The notes beneath the pieces are model-generated. The model had not been told where the DNA came from, made no database searches, and was given only the letters and a program-made list of their open reading frames with translations. From Streptomyces specialis (GTDB lineage: Bacteria; Actinomycetota; Actinomycetes; Streptomycetales; Streptomycetaceae), in assembly GCF_001493375.1 (NCBI RefSeq), contig NZ_LN929759.1:1-64000 (forward strand): 64,000 nucleotides of DNA, written 5' to 3'. Positions 2,840-61,403 of the stretch are shown here, piece by piece (positions within the stretch are counted from its first letter, which is position 1; each line of letters begins with the position of its first letter). The position numbers were made by a program, and so were the translations under genes.

Positions 2840-3805
2840 TCACTCGGCGGCCAGGTAGCCCTCCAGCTCGTCGAGGATCTGCTCGGCGGCCGTGTAGCCG
2901 ATGCCGAGGAACCAGAGCTGGTCGTCCACGTGGAAGGCGCGGTCGTTCTGGACGGCCGTCAGGTCGTCCCACAGGGGGCCGCCGACCGCTTCCTGCTCGC
3001 CGGACGCGTCGGCGGCGCCGTAGGAGGTGTAGAAGATGACGTCACCGTCGGCCTGGTCGACCTGCTCGGGGCTGACCTCGACCGCGAAGCCGTCCTCGGC
3101 CTCGTCCGCGATGGCGGGACGGCCGAGGCCGACGTCCTCCAGGATGGTGCCGATGTAGTTCTCGCGGCCGTAGAGCCGGGTGTTGCCGCCCTCGATGAAG
3201 CGCAGCATGCTCACCTCGGTGTCCGCCGCGACCTCCGCGCCGCCGATGGCCTCGGTCACCTCGGCGACGTGCGCCTCGTACTCGGCGACGACGGCCTCGG
3301 CCTCCTCCGTCTTGTTCAGCGCGTCGGCGTGCACCAGGAAGTTCTCCTTCCAGGGCGCGCCCACGGTCTCGGTGAAGACGGTCGGGGCGATCGCGGACAG
3401 CTCGTCGTAGCGCTGCTCGTCGCGGACCTTGCTGCCGATGATGAGGTCGGGGTCCAGCTCGTTGATCGCCTCCAGGTTGGGGGCGGCGATCTGGCCGACG
3501 TTCTCGATGCCGGCCAACTGGTCCTCGGGCAGGTAGGTGAGGAACTCGGCGTTGACGTCCGCCTGGACGGCGCCGACCGGGGTGACGCCCAGCGTGATCA
3601 GGCTGTCCAGCTCCGCCGTGTCCAGGACCACGACGCGCTGCGGGTTCTCGGGCACCTCGACCGGGCCCATCGCCGTCTCGACGGTTCTGGTGCCTCCGTC
3701 GCCGGATCCGTCGTTGGCGTCGGAGGAGTCGTCGCTGCTGCAGGCGCCGAGGCCGAGGGTGGTGGCCAGCGCGACGGCGATGGCGGCGGTGATGCGGCGG
3801 TTCAT
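2840..3805 (-). CDS. Iron-siderophore ABC transporter substrate-binding lipoprotein
   Basis: A 321-residue FecB/FepB-type (cluster A-II) periplasmic-binding-fold protein. It starts with a type II signal peptide ending in the lipobox LGAC (Cys at about residue 21), so it is lipid-anchored outside the membrane. A low-complexity Ser/Asp linker follows, then the family core with [19 protein letters not shown] and LDPDLIIG. It is the last gene of a leftward uptake operon. Its ATG overlaps the stop of the ATPase gene (ATGA). The order permease-permease-ATPase-binding protein is that of ferric-siderophore (cch-like) uptake systems. The siderophore itself cannot be told from sequence. Confidence 0.93.
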
Positions 3806-23587: not shown

Positions 23588-24835
23588 TCACGGCCCGAGA
23601 GGGGTTGTCGGGGTGAACCGGACCGGCAGCGCGGCCAGGCCCCGCAGGAACGGCGACCGCCGCCGGACGAGGGCGGCGGGCGGCACCGCCAGGTCGATGT
23701 CCGGCAGCCGGTCGAGCAGCACCTCGACGCCGGTGCGGGCGATGATCTCGGCGATCTCCTGGGCCGGGAAGGGGCAGCGGAACTCGCCGTGGCTGAAGGA
23801 GAAGTGCGCTTTGTGGCCGCCGGAGTGCGGGGTGCCGCCGTACCGCACCTGCGGGTCGCCGTGGGCGCCCTGGAGGCCGAGCAGCAGCATGTCCCCGGCC
23901 AGCAGCCGCTGCCCGCCCAGGTACGTGTCACGGGCCGCCCAGCGCCCGGCGAGGATCTGGGTGGGGGTGTCCTCCCACAGCACCAGGTTCATCGCGTCGC
24001 CGACGCTGCCCCGCCCGCCCGCGAGGGACGCGGCGAACCGGTCGTCGGTGAGCACCGCGGCGAGCGTGTTCCCGATCCAGTCGGCCGTGGGCTGGTGCCC
24101 GGCGGCGAGGACGGCGGCGAGGTCGAGGACGTACTCCTCCTCGGTGAAGCCGCCGGGGTGGGTCAGCATCCGGGACGTCACGTCGGCGCCCGGCATGGCG
24201 CGCTTGGCGGTGACCAGGCGCTGCATGGCGGAGCTGAGGTACTGGTGGCCCGCGACGGCGTCGTCGCCGCCGGCGGCCAGCGCGTTGAGGGCCCCGGCCA
24301 GTGGCGGGCACTCGGCGTCGGGGACGCCGAGCGCGCGGCCCAGGACGTGGATGGGCAGCAGCTTGGCGTACCCGTCGATCAGCTCGGCCTCGCCCTGTCC
24401 GCAGAACGTGTCCACCAGGGCGTCCGCGACCGTTTCGGCGTGCCGGCGCAACTGGTAGGTGTCCTCGGCCTCCAGCGCGGGGACCACCATGTCCACGTGC
24501 CGCTTGTGCTCCGCGCCGGTCGTGTAGTGGATCGACGGCTGGCGGCGGTTGACCATGGCCATCAGCGGCCAGTCGCGCGGGACGCGCGGCCACTGGTTCC
24601 ACAGCGCCGGGTCGCGCGGGAAGAACGTGGCGTCGCCGATGATGTGGTGCAGCTCGCGGTAGCCGATCACCAGCCAGGCCGGGATCTCGCCGGGCAGCGC
24701 GACGGGCACGACCGGGCCGTGCCGCTGCCGCAGCTCCCGGTACAGCGCGGCCGGTTCGGTGTGGAACCGGGGGTTGTCGATCGGCACGGCGCCGGGCGCG
24801 AGTCCCGGGATCGGCGGCCGGGGACTGGTGCTCAC
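23588..24835 (-). CDS. cvnE: Conservon cytochrome P450 (CvnE)
   Basis: A 415-residue P450 and last gene of the conservon. The I-helix oxygen-activation motif is AGHQPT (near residue 240), and the haem-thiolate Cys lies in FSHGEFRCPFPAQ, a variant of FGxGxHxCxG usual for conservon P450s. The N terminus PIPGLAPGAVPIDNPRFHTEP is characteristic. The GTG start overlaps the cvnD stop (GTGA). Conservon P450s have no well-established substrate; they are thought to act with the CvnA-D membrane-associated signalling complex. Confidence 0.92.
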   Translation of the reverse strand: MSTSPRPPIPGLAPGAVPIDNPRFHTEPAALYRELRQRHGPVVPVALPGEIPAWLVIGYRELHHIIGDATFFPRDPALWNQWPRVPRDWPLMAMVNRRQPSIHYTTGAEHKRHVDMVVPALEAEDTYQLRRHAETVADALVDTFCGQGEAELIDGYAKLLPIHVLGRALGVPDAECPPLAGALNALAAGGDDAVAGHQYLSSAMQRLVTAKRAMPGADVTSRMLTHPGGFTEEEYVLDLAAVLAAGHQPTADWIGNTLAAVLTDDRFAASLAGGRGSVGDAMNLVLWEDTPTQILAGRWAARDTYLGGQRLLAGDMLLLGLQGAHGDPQVRYGGTPHSGGHKAHFSFSHGEFRCPFPAQEIAEIIARTGVEVLLDRLPDIDLAVPPAALVRRRSPFLRGLAALPVRFTPTTPLGP

Positions 24836-25452
24836 GGGGTCGCCTCCGGGTTCTGCTGGGCGGCGGCGATCCCGTAGAGGTACTTGACGAGGGTCAGCAG
24901 GACCGCCTTGCACGACGAACGGGAGCGCGCGTCGCAGTCGACGAGCGGCACGTGGCCGGGCAGGTCGAGTGCCTCGCGGACCTGCTCCAGGGTGTGGGCC
25001 GGGCCCTCGAAGCGGTTGCGGGCGACGATGAACGGGGTGCCGTGCTGCTCCAGCCGGTCGATGGCGTACCAGGAGTCCGCCAGCCGCCGGGTGTCCACGA
25101 GCACGACGGCGCCCAGGGTGCCGATGAACAGCCGCTCCCACAGGAACCAGAAACGTTCCTGGCCGGGGGCGCCGAAGAGGTAGAGGACGGTCCGCTCGTT
25201 GAGGGTGATCCGGCCGAAGTCGAACGCGACGGTGGTCGAGGTCTTGTCGCGCACGGCGGATATGTCGTCCACGCCCTCGCCGGCGCGGGTCATGATCTCC
25301 TCGGTGTTGAGCGGGCGGATGTCGCTGACCGCGCGCACGAGGGTGGTCTTGCCGACGCCGAAGCCGCCGGTGATGACGATCTTGAGGCCGTTCTCCGCGC
25401 TTCTGCCCAGCGGGGTGCGTTCGGTCCGGCGGTCAGAGCTTGCGGAGTCCAA
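24832..25452 (-). CDS. cvnD: Conservon GTP-binding protein (CvnD)
   Basis: A 206-residue Ras-like/MglA-type GTPase. P-loop GGFGVGKTT near residue 30, switch II in GAPGQERFWFLWERL, and an NRFE-type G4 motif. It is thought to bind the CvnB/CvnC partners and be recruited by CvnA. TTG at 25452 gives MDSASSDRRTERTPL, close to known CvnD N termini; another TTG at 25467 is possible. The start lies inside cvnC (20-base overlap) and the stop overlaps cvnE. Confidence 0.93.
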   Translation of the reverse strand: MDSASSDRRTERTPLGRSAENGLKIVITGGFGVGKTTLVRAVSDIRPLNTEEIMTRAGEGVDDISAVRDKTSTTVAFDFGRITLNERTVLYLFGAPGQERFWFLWERLFIGTLGAVVLVDTRRLADSWYAIDRLEQHGTPFIVARNRFEGPAHTLEQVREALDLPGHVPLVDCDARSRSSCKAVLLTLVKYLYGIAAAQQNPEATP

Positions 25453-25792
25453 CGAGAACCTGCTCAAGGAGTCGGGGGTCGGGGGGCGACACGTCGGGCG
25501 TGGCGAGGGTGGAGGGGTGCCGGGCGCTGACCCGGCCGGTGGCGAGGAGGTCGCCCAGGAGGATCTTGACGATCGTCACGGGCAGCCGCAGCTCGGCCGC
25601 GATCTCCACGACGGCGGTCGGGTTGCGGCACATGCGGAGGATTCTGGCGTGCTCGGACTGCATGCCCGCCGTCGGCTCCGCCTCGCTCACCACCAGCGTG
25701 ACCAGGTCGAAGGAGTGCGAACCCACCCGGCTGCGGCCCCCGGTGAGGGTGTACAGCCGGTCGGGGTCGTCGTCCCGGCCGGGGCGGATCAT
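25433..25792 (-). CDS. cvnC: Conservon DUF742 protein (CvnC)
   Basis: A 119-residue DUF742 protein with a predicted winged-helix core. Typical stretches are RLYTLTGGRS at the N terminus, the middle EHARILRMCRNPTAVVEIAAEL, and the C-terminal DPRLLEQVLVGLRKL. It is a standard partner of CvnB and CvnD. Its ATG overlaps the cvnB stop (ATGA). Confidence 0.94.
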   Translation of the reverse strand: MIRPGRDDDPDRLYTLTGGRSRVGSHSFDLVTLVVSEAEPTAGMQSEHARILRMCRNPTAVVEIAAELRLPVTIVKILLGDLLATGRVSARHPSTLATPDVSPPDPRLLEQVLVGLRKL

Positions 25793-26226
25793 GCCGTTCC
25801 GCCGCCTCTGGCGAACGTCCTGGGCGGTGCGATGAGGTGGTCGCCGAGCTGTTCCACCAGCTCGCTCATGTTGTGCCCGACCAGTCCGGCGTCGGCGGTC
25901 TCCTCCGCGACGATCGCCAGGTGGGCGCCCTGCCCGGCCTCCACGATGAACAGCAGGCCGCCGTAGAACTCGGTCATCGACTGCCGGACGCCGCCGGTCC
26001 CGTCGCCGAACTCGATCGAGGCGCCGTGCGACAGGCTCTGGATGCCGGCCGCGATCGCCGCGAGCTGGTCGGCCTGGTCGGGCGTCAGGCCGGGGGTGCG
26101 GCACAGCTTCAGCCCGTCCCGCGAGAGCAGCAGCGCGTGGCGCGCGCCGGGGGTGCGGGTCAGGAGGCTTTCGAGCAGCCAGTCGAGTCTGTCTCCTGTG
26201 GTGCCGGTGGCCGGCGGTGCTGTCAT
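25789..26226 (-). CDS. cvnB: Conservon roadblock/LC7 protein (CvnB)
   Basis: A 145-residue roadblock/LC7-domain protein, a likely GTPase-activating or scaffold partner of CvnD, as MglB is for MglA. Family marks are LDWLLESLLTRTPGARHALLLSRDGL at the start (split: LDWLLESLLTRTPGA, HALLLSRDGL) and the later MTEFYGGLLFIVEAGQGAHL. The ATG overlaps the tail of cvnA (ATGA), which also proves the reading frame of that otherwise broken gene. Confidence 0.94.
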   Translation of the reverse strand: MTAPPATGTTGDRLDWLLESLLTRTPGARHALLLSRDGLKLCRTPGLTPDQADQLAAIAAGIQSLSHGASIEFGDGTGGVRQSMTEFYGGLLFIVEAGQGAHLAIVAEETADAGLVGHNMSELVEQLGDHLIAPPRTFARGGGTA

Positions 26227-26554
26227 GGGGTGTCGTCCTCCGGATGCGGTGAGGGAGTCGAGGAGGACGAGGGGGCCGGGGACGCGGGACCGGAGTCGTA
26301 GGCGCCGGGGTCGTCGCCCTGTCCCTGCTCGCGGCCCTGCACGGCGCGGCGGAACGCGCCGAAGCGGGCGGCGGTCTCGGCCGGGGTGTGGGCGGCGGGC
26401 CCCCGCGGGCGCTCACGGACGGGCAGGGCCTGGCCGTGGGCCGCGGCGAGCGCCTGTCCTCGGCGCCGCCTGGGCAGCTCGGCGGCCCGGCCGAACTCGG
26501 TGGTGTCGTCGTCGGCGGCGGGGGAGTGGTCGTCGGTGGCGCGCGGCAGCGCGG
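26223..26554 (-). CDS. cvnA: cvnA, C-terminal fragment (split by adapter)
   Basis: About 110 residues in the frame that ends in the ATGA overlap with cvnB. The fragment is low in complexity and charged (AELPRRRRGQALAAA, then a Pro/Ser/Asp-rich end), which is the usual disordered tail of CvnA proteins. There is no start codon of its own; the adapter sequence at 26555-26729 separates it from the rest of the gene. It should be joined to 26730-27881, with possible loss of some codons. Confidence 0.8.
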
Positions 26555-26729
26555 CTGTCTCTTTATACACATCTCCGAGCCCACGAGACAGGCAGAAAAC
26601 TCGTATGCCGTCTTCTGCTTGAAACAAAAACGGGCGGGTCCGGAAATCGAGGTCTGCGGGCAACCGCGTTTACGATAGCGCTCTACACCTCCAACCGTCA
26701 AGGCGGCGTCAGATGTGTGTGAGGGCCAG
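26555..26729. other. Complete Nextera adapter inserted in assembly
   Basis: The left end reads CTGTCTCTTTATACACATCT (reverse mosaic end with one extra T), then CCGAGCCCACGAGAC, the 8-base index AGGCAGAA, and CTCGTATGCCGTCTTCTGCTTG in pieces. This is the i7 side of an Illumina Nextera library molecule. The right end approaches the i5/read-1 side (GGCGGCGTCAGATGTGTGTGAGG) with errors. The region is a sequencing artefact and not a mobile element. It breaks cvnA. Confidence 0.97.
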
Positions 26730-27881
26730 CCCGGGGGCGGGTCCCGCGACCTGCGCGGCGGGCGGCGGGGCCTGGGCCGGGAGGGGCTTCGGACGGCTGA
26801 TCAGCTCCTGCGGGATCATCATCAGCGCGCCGGTGCCGCCGCGGGCGGAGGGCCGGAAGGACACCTTCAGCCCGTGCTTGCGGGCGAGGCAGCCGACGAC
26901 GGCCAGCCCGAGCCGGGTCCCGGAGAGGGTGGTCAGGTCCAACGCCTCGGCGGAGACGGCCCGTTCGGCGCGGCGCAGCGCCACGTCGCTCATGACCAGG
27001 CCGCTGTCCTCGACGGTCAGGATGACCCCGACCGGCACTTCCTCGGCGTAGACGTGGATCTCGGCGGTGGGCGGCGAGAAGTTCGCGGCGTTGTCGAGGA
27101 GTTCGGCCAGGGCGTGCATGACGCCCTCGGCGGCGTGGCCCGCGATGGCGACGTCGAGCGTGGAGTGCAGCCTGACCCTCTGGTAGCCGCCGATGCGGCC
27201 CATGGCGCCGCGCAGGATGCTCTCCATCACGATCGGCTTGGCCCAGCGCCGTCCCGAGCGGGCGCCCGTCAGCACGGCGATGCTGTCGGCCAGCCGGCCC
27301 GCCTGGGCCGTGCGGTGGTCGAGGTGCAGCAGGTCGCCCAGGACGTTCTCGTCGCCGTGCCGGTGCTCCATCTCCCGCAGGTCGGCGAGCATGCCGGTCG
27401 TCAGGGCCTGCATCCGCCCGGCCGCGTTGGCGCAGGCGGCCATGGCGGCGGCCTTGCTCGTCTCGCCGTGGCCGATCTCGGTGGCCAGCGTCCGCAGGAC
27501 CTGGGCGGTGGCCTCGTCCTCCGGCGCCGGCACGGCCGCCAGCACGGCGTCGGCCGAGGCGCCGGAGCGCAGCCGCCGCACCACGTCGGGAACGGTCTCG
27601 TCGGTGAACCGCCGCACCGAGGCGTCCCGCGCCTCCACGCTCCGCCGCAGCCACCGGTACCGGGTGAAGCCCCACGTCGCGGTCGTCACGGCCGCGCACA
27701 CCACGACGGCCGCCGCGCCCGCGCCCCACGCGACGGGGATCCGGAACGACTCGGGCGCCGCGTACACCCCGGCGAGCCAGCCCGCGCCGGTCGTGGCCAG
27801 GGAGATGAGGAGAGCCAGCAGGGCCTGCCGCACGGGCGGGCGTTCCGTCCTTCGGCGCGCCGGCGGGGTGTGCGCTGTCAT
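26709..27881 (-). CDS. cvnA: Conservon sensor-kinase-like protein CvnA, N-terminal part
   Basis: Residues 1-384 of a histidine-kinase-like membrane protein; the last seven or so codons and the stop come from adapter sequence. Two N-terminal transmembrane helices (about 22-42 and 50-70) are followed by a dimerisation region with GDLLHLDHRTAQAGRLADS, then the GHKL ATPase domain: N-box LAELLDNAANFSP, a degenerate G1 box, and GTRLGLAVVGCLARKHG. It resembles CvnA, which organises CvnB-E at the membrane. First gene of the leftward conservon. ATG start with GAGG upstream. Confidence 0.9.
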   Translation of the reverse strand: MTAHTPPARRRTERPPVRQALLALLISLATTGAGWLAGVYAAPESFRIPVAWGAGAAAVVVCAAVTTATWGFTRYRWLRRSVEARDASVRRFTDETVPDVVRRLRSGASADAVLAAVPAPEDEATAQVLRTLATEIGHGETSKAAAMAACANAAGRMQALTTGMLADLREMEHRHGDENVLGDLLHLDHRTAQAGRLADSIAVLTGARSGRRWAKPIVMESILRGAMGRIGGYQRVRLHSTLDVAIAGHAAEGVMHALAELLDNAANFSPPTAEIHVYAEEVPVGVILTVEDSGLVMSDVALRRAERAVSAEALDLTTLSGTRLGLAVVGCLARKHGLKVSFRPSARGGTGALMMIPQELISRPKPLPAQAPPPAAQVAGPAPGLALTHI

Positions 27882-44861: not shown

Positions 44862-46310
44862 ATGACTGCCAGACCACTGATCGCCCGCCAGCCCAACGAG
44901 CGCCTGCTCTCCCTCATCCGTGAGGCGGGTTGCTCGAACGCGGGACTGGCTCGCCGCGTCAACATGTGCGCCGCCGAGCGCGGCTTCGATTTCCGGTACG
45001 ACAAAACGTCCGTCGCGCGCTGGATCCGTGGCCAGCAGCCGCGCGGCCGGGCGCCCGAGGTCATCGCGGAAGCGCTGGGGCGCAAGCTCGGCCGCGCGGT
45101 GTCCGTCGACGAGATCGGCATGGGCACCACGCGCCAGCTCACCTCCTCGGTCGGCCTGCACTTCGCGGCCGGGCTGACCGAGAGCCTGGAGCAGGCGACG
45201 GAGCTGTGGCGTTCCGACGTGTCGCGCCGGGAGAGCGGCGACGGCCAGAACCCGTACGCGCCGGGCGGCTCCAGCGTCGCCCCGGCCGCGCTCGTCGAGC
45301 CCAGCCGTGACTGGCTGATCACCCCGCCCGACGCCGAGGTGTCCCGCGCGTCGGGGCCGCGCGTCGGCAGCGCGGACGTGGAGGCCGTGATCGCGACGAC
45401 GGCGGCGCTGGTCACCCTCGACCGCCGCTGGGGCTCGGGCCATGTGCGCCCGGTCGTCGTCCACTACCTCAACGGCGTCGTCGCCGGTCTGCTCGACGGC
45501 TCCTACCAGGAGGAGGTCGGCCGTCAACTGTTCGGCGCCGCCGCCCGGTTGACCGAGCTGGCCGGGTACATGGCGGTGGACAGCGGCCTGCCCGGCCTGG
45601 CCCAGCGGTACTACATCCAGGCGCTGCGCCTGGCCCAGGCCGCCGGCGACCGGGGCTTCGGCGGCTACGTGCTGGCGGCCGGAATGAGCCACCTGGCCGC
45701 CGAGTTGGGGAACCCGCGCGAGGTCATCCAGCTCGCCCGTGCCGCCCAGGAGGGCTCCCGGGGCCGCGTCACACCCCGCGCGGAAGCGCTCTTCCTGGCC
45801 GCCGAGGCCCGGGGCTACGCCCAACTCGGCGACCAGGAGGGCTGCCGCCGCGCGGCGTCCGCCGCCCTCGCCGCCCTCGACCGCGCCGACCCCGACTCCG
45901 GCGACGACCCGCCGTGGATCACGCACTTCGACGCGGCCTATCTCGCCGACGAGTTGGCGCACTGCCACCGCGACCTCGGCCAGGGCCGGGCGGCGCAGAA
46001 GCGCGCGGAGGAGGCCCTGTCCGGCCACCCGGAGACCCGCGCCCGCCGCCGCGCGATAGGCATGCTCATCCTGGCCACCGGCCAGTTGCAGGAAGGCGAC
46101 CTGGACCAGGCGTGCGACACGGCCTCCCAGGCCGGCACCATCCTGAACGGCCTCCGCTCGGGCCGGGGCAGCGACTACTTCGAAGACTTCCGCACCCGCC
46201 TCACCCCCCACCGCACGCACCCCCCCGTCTCTTATAAACCCCCGCCGCTGCCGACGAAGGGCACACGCAGCCCACCCGTGCGCTCCGAGCCGTATCACGC
46301 CTACAGGTAG
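44862..46310 (+). CDS. HTH/TPR transcriptional regulator, 3' end lost
   Basis: Residues 1 to about 454 of a regulator of the NsdA/large TPR type. N-terminal 75 residues are DNA-binding-like (NERLLSLIREAGCSNAGLARRVNM, DKTSVARWIRGQQPRGRAPEV, in parts). A long region of TPR-like helices follows: GLAQRYYIQALRLAQAAGDRGFGGYVLA (split), LGNPREVIQLARAAQEG, LAHCHRDLGQGRAAQKRAEEAL. After residue about 455 the frame runs into Nextera adapter at 46225, so the last 28 codons and the stop are false. A genuine C-terminal end of perhaps 20-40 residues is missing. ATG start with GGGAG upstream. Confidence 0.85.
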   Translation: MTARPLIARQPNERLLSLIREAGCSNAGLARRVNMCAAERGFDFRYDKTSVARWIRGQQPRGRAPEVIAEALGRKLGRAVSVDEIGMGTTRQLTSSVGLHFAAGLTESLEQATELWRSDVSRRESGDGQNPYAPGGSSVAPAALVEPSRDWLITPPDAEVSRASGPRVGSADVEAVIATTAALVTLDRRWGSGHVRPVVVHYLNGVVAGLLDGSYQEEVGRQLFGAAARLTELAGYMAVDSGLPGLAQRYYIQALRLAQAAGDRGFGGYVLAAGMSHLAAELGNPREVIQLARAAQEGSRGRVTPRAEALFLAAEARGYAQLGDQEGCRRAASAALAALDRADPDSGDDPPWITHFDAAYLADELAHCHRDLGQGRAAQKRAEEALSGHPETRARRRAIGMLILATGQLQEGDLDQACDTASQAGTILNGLRSGRGSDYFEDFRTRLTPHRTHPPVSYKPPPLPTKGTRSPPVRSEPYHAYR

Positions 46311-46357
46311 CACGTCTCGGCTGTTCGCCCGCAGCGTCGGATGTGTATAAGAGCCAC
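46225..46357. other. Corrupted Nextera adapter at an assembly joint
   Basis: The left end (CCGTCTCTTATAAA then CCGCTGCCGACGA) is the reverse read-1 adapter; the right end (CAGCGTCGGATGTGTATAAGAG) is its forward copy. Between them are 60 bases without genomic features. I treat the join between the regulator on the left and the radical-SAM block on the right as unproved. Confidence 0.9.
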
Positions 46358-54434: not shown

Positions 54435-54467
54435 GCGTCTCTTATTAACAGCCGAAGCTGCCGGCGG
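54435..54467. other. Corrupted Nextera adapter at an assembly joint
   Basis: GCGTCTCTTATTAACA then GCTGCCGGCGGA is close to CTGTCTCTTATACACATCT followed by GACGCTGCCGACGA with several errors. It falls right after the TPR remnant and before a membrane-protein gene that lacks its 5' end. The left and right neighbours may not be adjacent in the genome. Confidence 0.75.
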
Positions 54468-54484
54468 AGGGGAGGGGGGAGGGC

Positions 54485-60233: not shown

Positions 60234-61403
60234 TCAGCGCCGCGCGGTCTCCTCGTCGGCCTGCCGCCGGACGATGGCGGCGGCGATCTTGGGGGCGTCG
60301 CGCGCCAGTTCGCGCAGGTTGCCGCTGATGGGGTTCGTGAAGCCGATGAAGTACAGCCCCTCGGCGGCCGGATGGGTCTCCGCGCCGTGCACCAGCGGGC
60401 CGCCGTCGCCGTCGAGAACGCCGAGGTGCCCGACGAGCGGCGCGAGCCCCCGGCGGTAGCCGGTCGCGGCGATCACCGCGTCGGGGGCGATCGTCTCGCC
60501 GTCCGCCAGCACCACCTTGCCCCCGTCGAACGCCTCGACCGCGGCCACCGGCCGCACCAGACCGCGCCGCACCGCGCGCACAAGTCCCGCGTCCACCACG
60601 GGGAACGAGCCCGCCCGCGCCCGTGAGTACAGGCCGGTGGCCGGGCGGGGCAGGCCGTGCCCGGCCAGGCCGGTCAGCAGCCGGCCGACGGGCCGGGGCA
60701 GCCGGTCCGTCACCACCACCGGCAGCCGTCGGCACAGGATCGCCCCGGCCTGTGAGGGCCAGCCCAGCGTGGCGCGGCGCAGGATGTGCGGCGCCGTCCG
60801 CACCGCCAGCCGCACCCGCCCGGCGCCGCCGAACGCCAGGTCCGCGGCTATCTCCGCTCCGCTGTTGCCGGTTCCGACGACCAGCACGTCCCGCCCCTCG
60901 AACGGCGCCGGCGACCGGTACGCGCTGGCGTGCAGCAACTCGCCCGCGTAACCGTCCAGTCCGGGCCAGTCCGGCAGATACGGCGTGTGGTGGTGGCCGG
61001 TTGCCACCACGACGGCCCCGGCGCGCAGCAGGCGCCCCCCGGTGGCGCGCAACACCCAGTCGTCGTCGCCCGGCCGGGGCCGGTCGATGCCGAAGACCTC
61101 GACACCGGCGGCGAGTTCTATCCGGTGGTGCCGGGCGTAGCTCTCCAGGTAGCGCACGAAGTCGTCGCGCCGCACCCAGCGTCCGGCCGAGCGGGGTATC
61201 CGCATCCCCGGCAGCGACGACCAGCGGCGGGTCGTGTGCAGCCGCAGGCGGTCGTAGTGGCCGCGCCAGGAGGCGCCCACGTCGGCGGACTTCTCGACCA
61301 CGACCGTCCGGACTCCCCGGCGCGCGAGCGAGGCCGCGACGGCGAGCCCGGCCGGACCGGCCCCGATGACGTGTACAGGGGACGTAGGCATGTCCATGAG
61401 CAT
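60234..61403 (-). CDS. Flavin-dependent monooxygenase / NAD(P)-binding oxidoreductase
   Basis: A 389-residue class B flavoprotein of the YUC/FMO/Baeyer-Villiger-like kind. FAD Rossmann motif VIGAGPAGLAVAASLARRG (residues about 10-28), second Rossmann motif for NADPH VLVVGTGNSGAEIAADL (about 175), and the conserved VVVATGHHHTPYLPDWPG and VIAATGYRRGL. It transfers oxygen to a small nucleophilic or ketone substrate, unknown here. ATG 61403; ATGs at 61397 and 61391 also fit. Divergence from the STAS cluster and convergent placement suggest independent control. Confidence 0.9.
   Translation of the reverse strand: MLMDMPTSPVHVIGAGPAGLAVAASLARRGVRTVVVEKSADVGASWRGHYDRLRLHTTRRWSSLPGMRIPRSAGRWVRRDDFVRYLESYARHHRIELAAGVEVFGIDRPRPGDDDWVLRATGGRLLRAGAVVVATGHHHTPYLPDWPGLDGYAGELLHASAYRSPAPFEGRDVLVVGTGNSGAEIAADLAFGGAGRVRLAVRTAPHILRRATLGWPSQAGAILCRRLPVVVTDRLPRPVGRLLTGLAGHGLPRPATGLYSRARAGSFPVVDAGLVRAVRRGLVRPVAAVEAFDGGKVVLADGETIAPDAVIAATGYRRGLAPLVGHLGVLDGDGGPLVHGAETHPAAEGLYFIGFTNPISGNLRELARDAPKIAAAIVRRQADEETARR

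Follow-up and report, generated by a model that had tools for sequence, protein, structure and literature searches.

Two facing Nextera adapter tails interrupt the conservon gene cvnA in a Streptomyces specialis assembly

A reading frame for cvnA in the Streptomyces specialis assembly (5,884,160 bases, 143 contigs; rated 98.47% complete and 0.41% contaminated) is interrupted by 175 bases. Their GC content is 0.56, whereas the flanking 100-base stretches have 0.80 and 0.79. The window analyzed here is a 64,000-nucleotide stretch comprising bases 1–64000 of contig 5. Within it, the minus strand carries the N-terminal genomic part of cvnA (26730–27881, 384 codons), with a HATPase_c domain (PF02518, 4.4e-10) and the start of a Pro/Ala linker, and the C-terminal genomic part (26223–26554, 110 codons plus 2 nt, including the stop), with an LPRRRRG motif. 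Profile matches identified cvnB (25789–26226; Robl_LC7, PF03259), cvnC (25433–25795; DUF742, PF05331), and cvnD (24832–25467; small GTPase, Pfam ATP_bind_1, PF03029) in order on the same strand. The protein encoded after cvnD (23588–24835, minus strand) is divergent and cytochrome P450-related, with matches to NCBIfam P450 models that all fall below their cut-offs and no Pfam match at 0.001; we take it to be CvnE, on the assumption that CvnE proteins are P450s. The succession of histidine-kinase-like CvnA, roadblock CvnB, DUF742 CvnC, and small GTPase CvnD agrees with the cvnABCD conservon as described in PMC13343842, and we found no difference from it beyond the artificial break, with a P450-like protein following cvnD. 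Judged from sequence, the insert is placed in the variable Pro/Ala linker of cvnA, the first gene of this predicted cvnA-B-C-D conservon.

The first-pass annotation had described two pieces of a single conservon gene separated by adapter, and had warned that a naive annotation would call two genes or a frameshifted pseudogene. The TGA of cvnA overlaps the ATG of cvnB, and both cvnA pieces lie in one frame straight through the insert (26223–27881, 1,659 nt). A frameshift in cvnA is therefore rejected, and that part of the warning fell away: the break is an in-frame TGA at 26709–26711, inside the adapter. The two-gene part held. Because the list of open reading frames contains 26709–27881 and 26223–26663, a gene caller would probably report two genes here.

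The insert itself (26555–26729) consists of two facing read-through tails of sequencing-kit adapter. The left tail, on the plus strand, begins at the left artefact edge with a reverse Tn5 mosaic end carrying one extra T (26555–26574), followed by an exact Nextera read-2 adapter remainder (CCGAGCCCACGAGAC, 26575–26589), an 8-base i7 index (AGGCAGAA, 26590–26597), and the 24-base P7 primer core with one mismatch (26598–26621). When aligned to a Nextera i7/P7 reference, this tail (26555–26621) matched at 65 of 66 aligned positions, apart from the extra T; within the window, its exact adapter 15-mer is found at this place alone. The index table printed in Appendix B of PMC7589761 lists AGGCAGAA as N703 and TATCCTCT as S503. 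The P7 core is followed by AAACAAAAAC, then by unrelated sequence, and finally by a read-1/P5 end. The intervening segment (26622–26681, not assigned to a strand) is A-rich at its start, with a longest A run of 5; its body (approximately 26622–26680) matched neither adapter nor the rest of the genome among 40 candidates scored, and is consistent with read-end noise. Facing the left tail on the minus strand are a degraded P5/i5 part (26682–26696; TCTACAC, then an unreadable index) and a degraded read-1 adapter with mosaic end (26697–26729), which contains the in-frame TGA. The alignments thus bore out the reading already proposed for this insert, a Nextera adapter with a readable N703 index that runs from the mosaic end through the P7 core to a degraded read-1 adapter, in every element, position, and order. 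This arrangement is that of Nextera and Nextera XT read-through: PMC3906532 describes how reads from short inserts continue into the adapter at the far end and finish in a run of A, and the mosaic end, read-2 remainder, 8-base index, P7 core, and A-rich sequence found here follow that description.

The right tail is the weaker of the two. Its last 33 bases (26697–26729) matched the read-1 adapter at 23 of 33 positions without gaps on the opposite strand, a score reached by none of 5,000 Markov segments of 139 bases (maximum 21). The mosaic end within it matched at 15 of 19 positions, and inclusion of the upstream TCTACAC and the index position (alignment of 26682–26729) gave 37 matches over 48 bases with gaps allowed. 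A readable kit i5 index was not found at the window insert, where the letters are the degraded CTCCAACC, while TATCCTCT is readable in this position at other sites of the genome. By score alone, the right tail is only modestly above background: a match of 22/33 to the read-1 adapter occurs at 3009–3041, in what looks like ordinary genomic DNA, even though the reversed window gave no match at this threshold. The assignment of the right tail is hence carried by its position, its orientation, and its recurrence at other sites, beside the score. Two candidate adapter sites elsewhere in the window (3009–3041 and 60848–60880) were dropped, as both read as genomic.

Adapter sequence is not confined to this locus. 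With the 186-base insert region as a DNA query, 41 matches were returned in the same genome (40 of 160 candidates scored). The 15-base P7 motif occurred at 65 places with at most one mismatch (34 exact), and the 22-base P5 motif at 118 places with at most three mismatches, compared with none for either reversed-pattern control. Among 30 P7 sites fetched from the 34 exact ones, the i7 index was exactly AGGCAGAA at 21 and differed from it by at most two letters at seven; in the remaining two records, which represent one junction (L025 and L026), it differed by at least three. Independent sites of the library thereby share one i7 index. At 17 of these 30 sites, eight or more consecutive A were seen around the end of the P7 core or beyond it. 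A further pattern that spans the i5 index matched at 63 places versus two in its control; some of its three-mismatch rows look genomic, and in the 23 rows with at most one mismatch (counted by hand) the index was exactly TATCCTCT in 18 and off by one or two letters in five. One index pair, AGGCAGAA/TATCCTCT (N703/S503), dominates the adapter debris of the genome. Adapter could be aligned in each of 60 fetched records, which had been chosen for containing a motif, and in none of a reversed-sequence control of 169,855 bases. Recurrence across the genome together with one dominant kit index pair identifies this material as untrimmed library sequence rather than DNA of the organism.

The facing arrangement in cvnA also recurs. 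A second tail facing the first with a score above 26 was present in 20 of the 60 records, including the window site (L014), or in 18 of 56 distinct tails once repeats (L026, L078, L012, and L032) are discounted, compared with two of 124 control segments. Tail-to-tail lengths in records with facing tails ranged from 94 to 280 bases, and junctions of the P7/P5, P7/P7, and P5/P5 types were all found. Such mixed combinations indicate that the tails came from different molecules and were merged. Merging of a single dovetailed read pair was considered and rejected, given that the flanks differ in sequence here and that P7/P7 and P5/P5 junctions exist. No clear second tail was seen in the other 40 records, of which eight stop within 150 bases of the first tail and 32 offer no such explanation.

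These observations lead us to regard the insert, with a probability of about 98%, as an assembly artefact in which untrimmed Nextera adapter tails were joined in a gap within cvnA. A paired-end Nextera library (N703/S503), in which some inserts were shorter than the read length, would have been assembled without adapter trimming. A very GC-rich spot in the cvnA linker may not have been bridged by longer-insert reads, so that reads of two different short fragments would have extended into the gap from opposite sides, running first into adapter and finally into noise. The two tails could then have been fused into a single contig during joining or gap filling. The variety of adapter combinations among facing tails points to an assembler or gap filler that joined read tails across an uncovered stretch, with either tool a candidate for that step.

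The proposal that both halves be aligned to an intact CvnA proved workable. Homologous loci were the best matches of 11 of 40 other genomes searched. In all 11 fetched loci, cvnA forms one unbroken reading frame to which both window pieces align in order, in agreement with a single gene divided by adapter. The N-terminal piece shared 222–267 identities over 361–379 positions with the nine closer homologues; the C-terminal piece aligned weakly (scores 69–132, all 11 loci) around an LP(K/R/Q)RRRG motif. The linker between the conserved anchors is too variable for the length missing from cvnA to be measured from homologues. Assuming exact edges, the two parts of genomic origin amount to 1,152 + 332 nt, which, if the frame is kept, would imply that 1, 4, 7, ... 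bases are missing. The insert probably replaces these bases, that is, an unclosed gap was filled with read tails, as opposed to a clean insertion.

A variant in which the adapter was placed into continuous sequence, with nothing missing, is the most durable alternative, although we consider it unlikely. It draws on the retained linker, which at 72 residues already falls within the range of 71–144 in the nine homologues with the motif. However, the two cvnA parts are one base short of frame when their edges are exact (edge bases may carry read errors), and a second junction, in a gene that we take from its sequence to be carotenoid-oxygenase-like, also appears short. The flanks of that junction adjoin each other in a relative, where 63 nt correspond to the 21 nt retained here; approximately 42 nt thus seem to be missing under a 252-base insert, a value that is approximate since the right edge of the insert is a weak tail (score 30). 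A third junction, in an amidase-like gene, was tried as a length ruler, and its right side gave no sensible alignment.

Loss of bases at the gap could in principle hide a lesion, such that cvnA is truly split or a pseudogene in this strain and the adapter marks the break by coincidence. We regard this as very improbable, because both parts are open and alignable to homologues, the LPRRRRG motif and the overlap with cvnB are intact, and, in at least one further case, an adapter junction of this genome sits in a gene that is whole in a relative. Tn5 mosaic ends do occur as the termini of genuine transposons, which speaks for an actual insertion into the DNA of the organism, such as an engineered or natural Tn5-type element with mosaic ends; we put the probability of such an event well under one in a hundred. 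The insert contains flow-cell primer and kit index letters, its sequence recurs with differing base errors at more than 100 places, and the 9 bases on its two sides differ, hence there is no 9-base target duplication. The distribution of the adapter in other genomes argues in the same direction. The exact 47-base N703 tail was found in 42 stretches of named genome contigs, of which (by hand count) 38 are no more than 20 bases from an end of the stretch, two no more than 200, and two internal. The S. specialis junctions differ from this usual placement at stretch ends, and from ordinary Nextera read-through, in being joined tail to tail inside contigs. Chance resemblance is negligible: although 15-base adapter pieces with three mismatches are about as frequent in the window as chance predicts (8 against 9.8 expected), the match to the P7 reference is nearly complete, the reversed-pattern and reversed-sequence controls were empty, and the i5 pattern control was far below the pattern itself.

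The insert is an ordinary artefact and not a feature of the organism, and nothing about it is biologically novel. It does carry a warning about quality, in that a well-rated assembly contains more than 100 adapter tails, many of them inside contigs, where they can give rise to spurious gene splits, stops, and open reading frames. There is perhaps an even chance that, in a genome so rich in GC, the adapter junctions map sites covered by short tagmentation fragments only, and that any annotation of this assembly would report many gene breaks that are false. Debris of the same kind is not limited to this assembly: other public genomes contain it, as do phage records and viral contigs. The P7 tail was detected at E 0.001 in 16 of 199 genomes of the genus (this one included), and adapter matches were found in 50 phage records, in three of 5,426 Escherichia coli genomes, and, with any index, in at least 120 viral stretches. 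Among the papers listed by literature searches on adapter contamination in assemblies, none was a dedicated survey, though such surveys may exist.

Several further occurrences were noted along the way. In the window, the contig starts in a degraded adapter tail (1–111) whose mosaic end, at 93–111, has two mismatches. A P5 tail faces another P5 tail at 46225–46357, in a second tail-to-tail junction of approximately 131–133 bases where a long open frame ends. A lone P5-type tail at 54435–54473 lies shortly after a TGA and continues into G-rich sequence, and no tail clearly faces it. Beyond this genome, both internal N703 copies (L088 and L116) belong to a single 7.16 Mb record, NZ_LR732544.1 of Streptomyces mexicanus Marseille-Q0842, and another genome of the genus (G012, one contig of 9.0 Mb) repeatedly matched the queries in their adapter part. 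In Escherichia phage vB_EcoM_G4507 (MK327946.1), an adapter-like match at 76685–76759 lies under an annotated baseplate hub/tail lysozyme gene.
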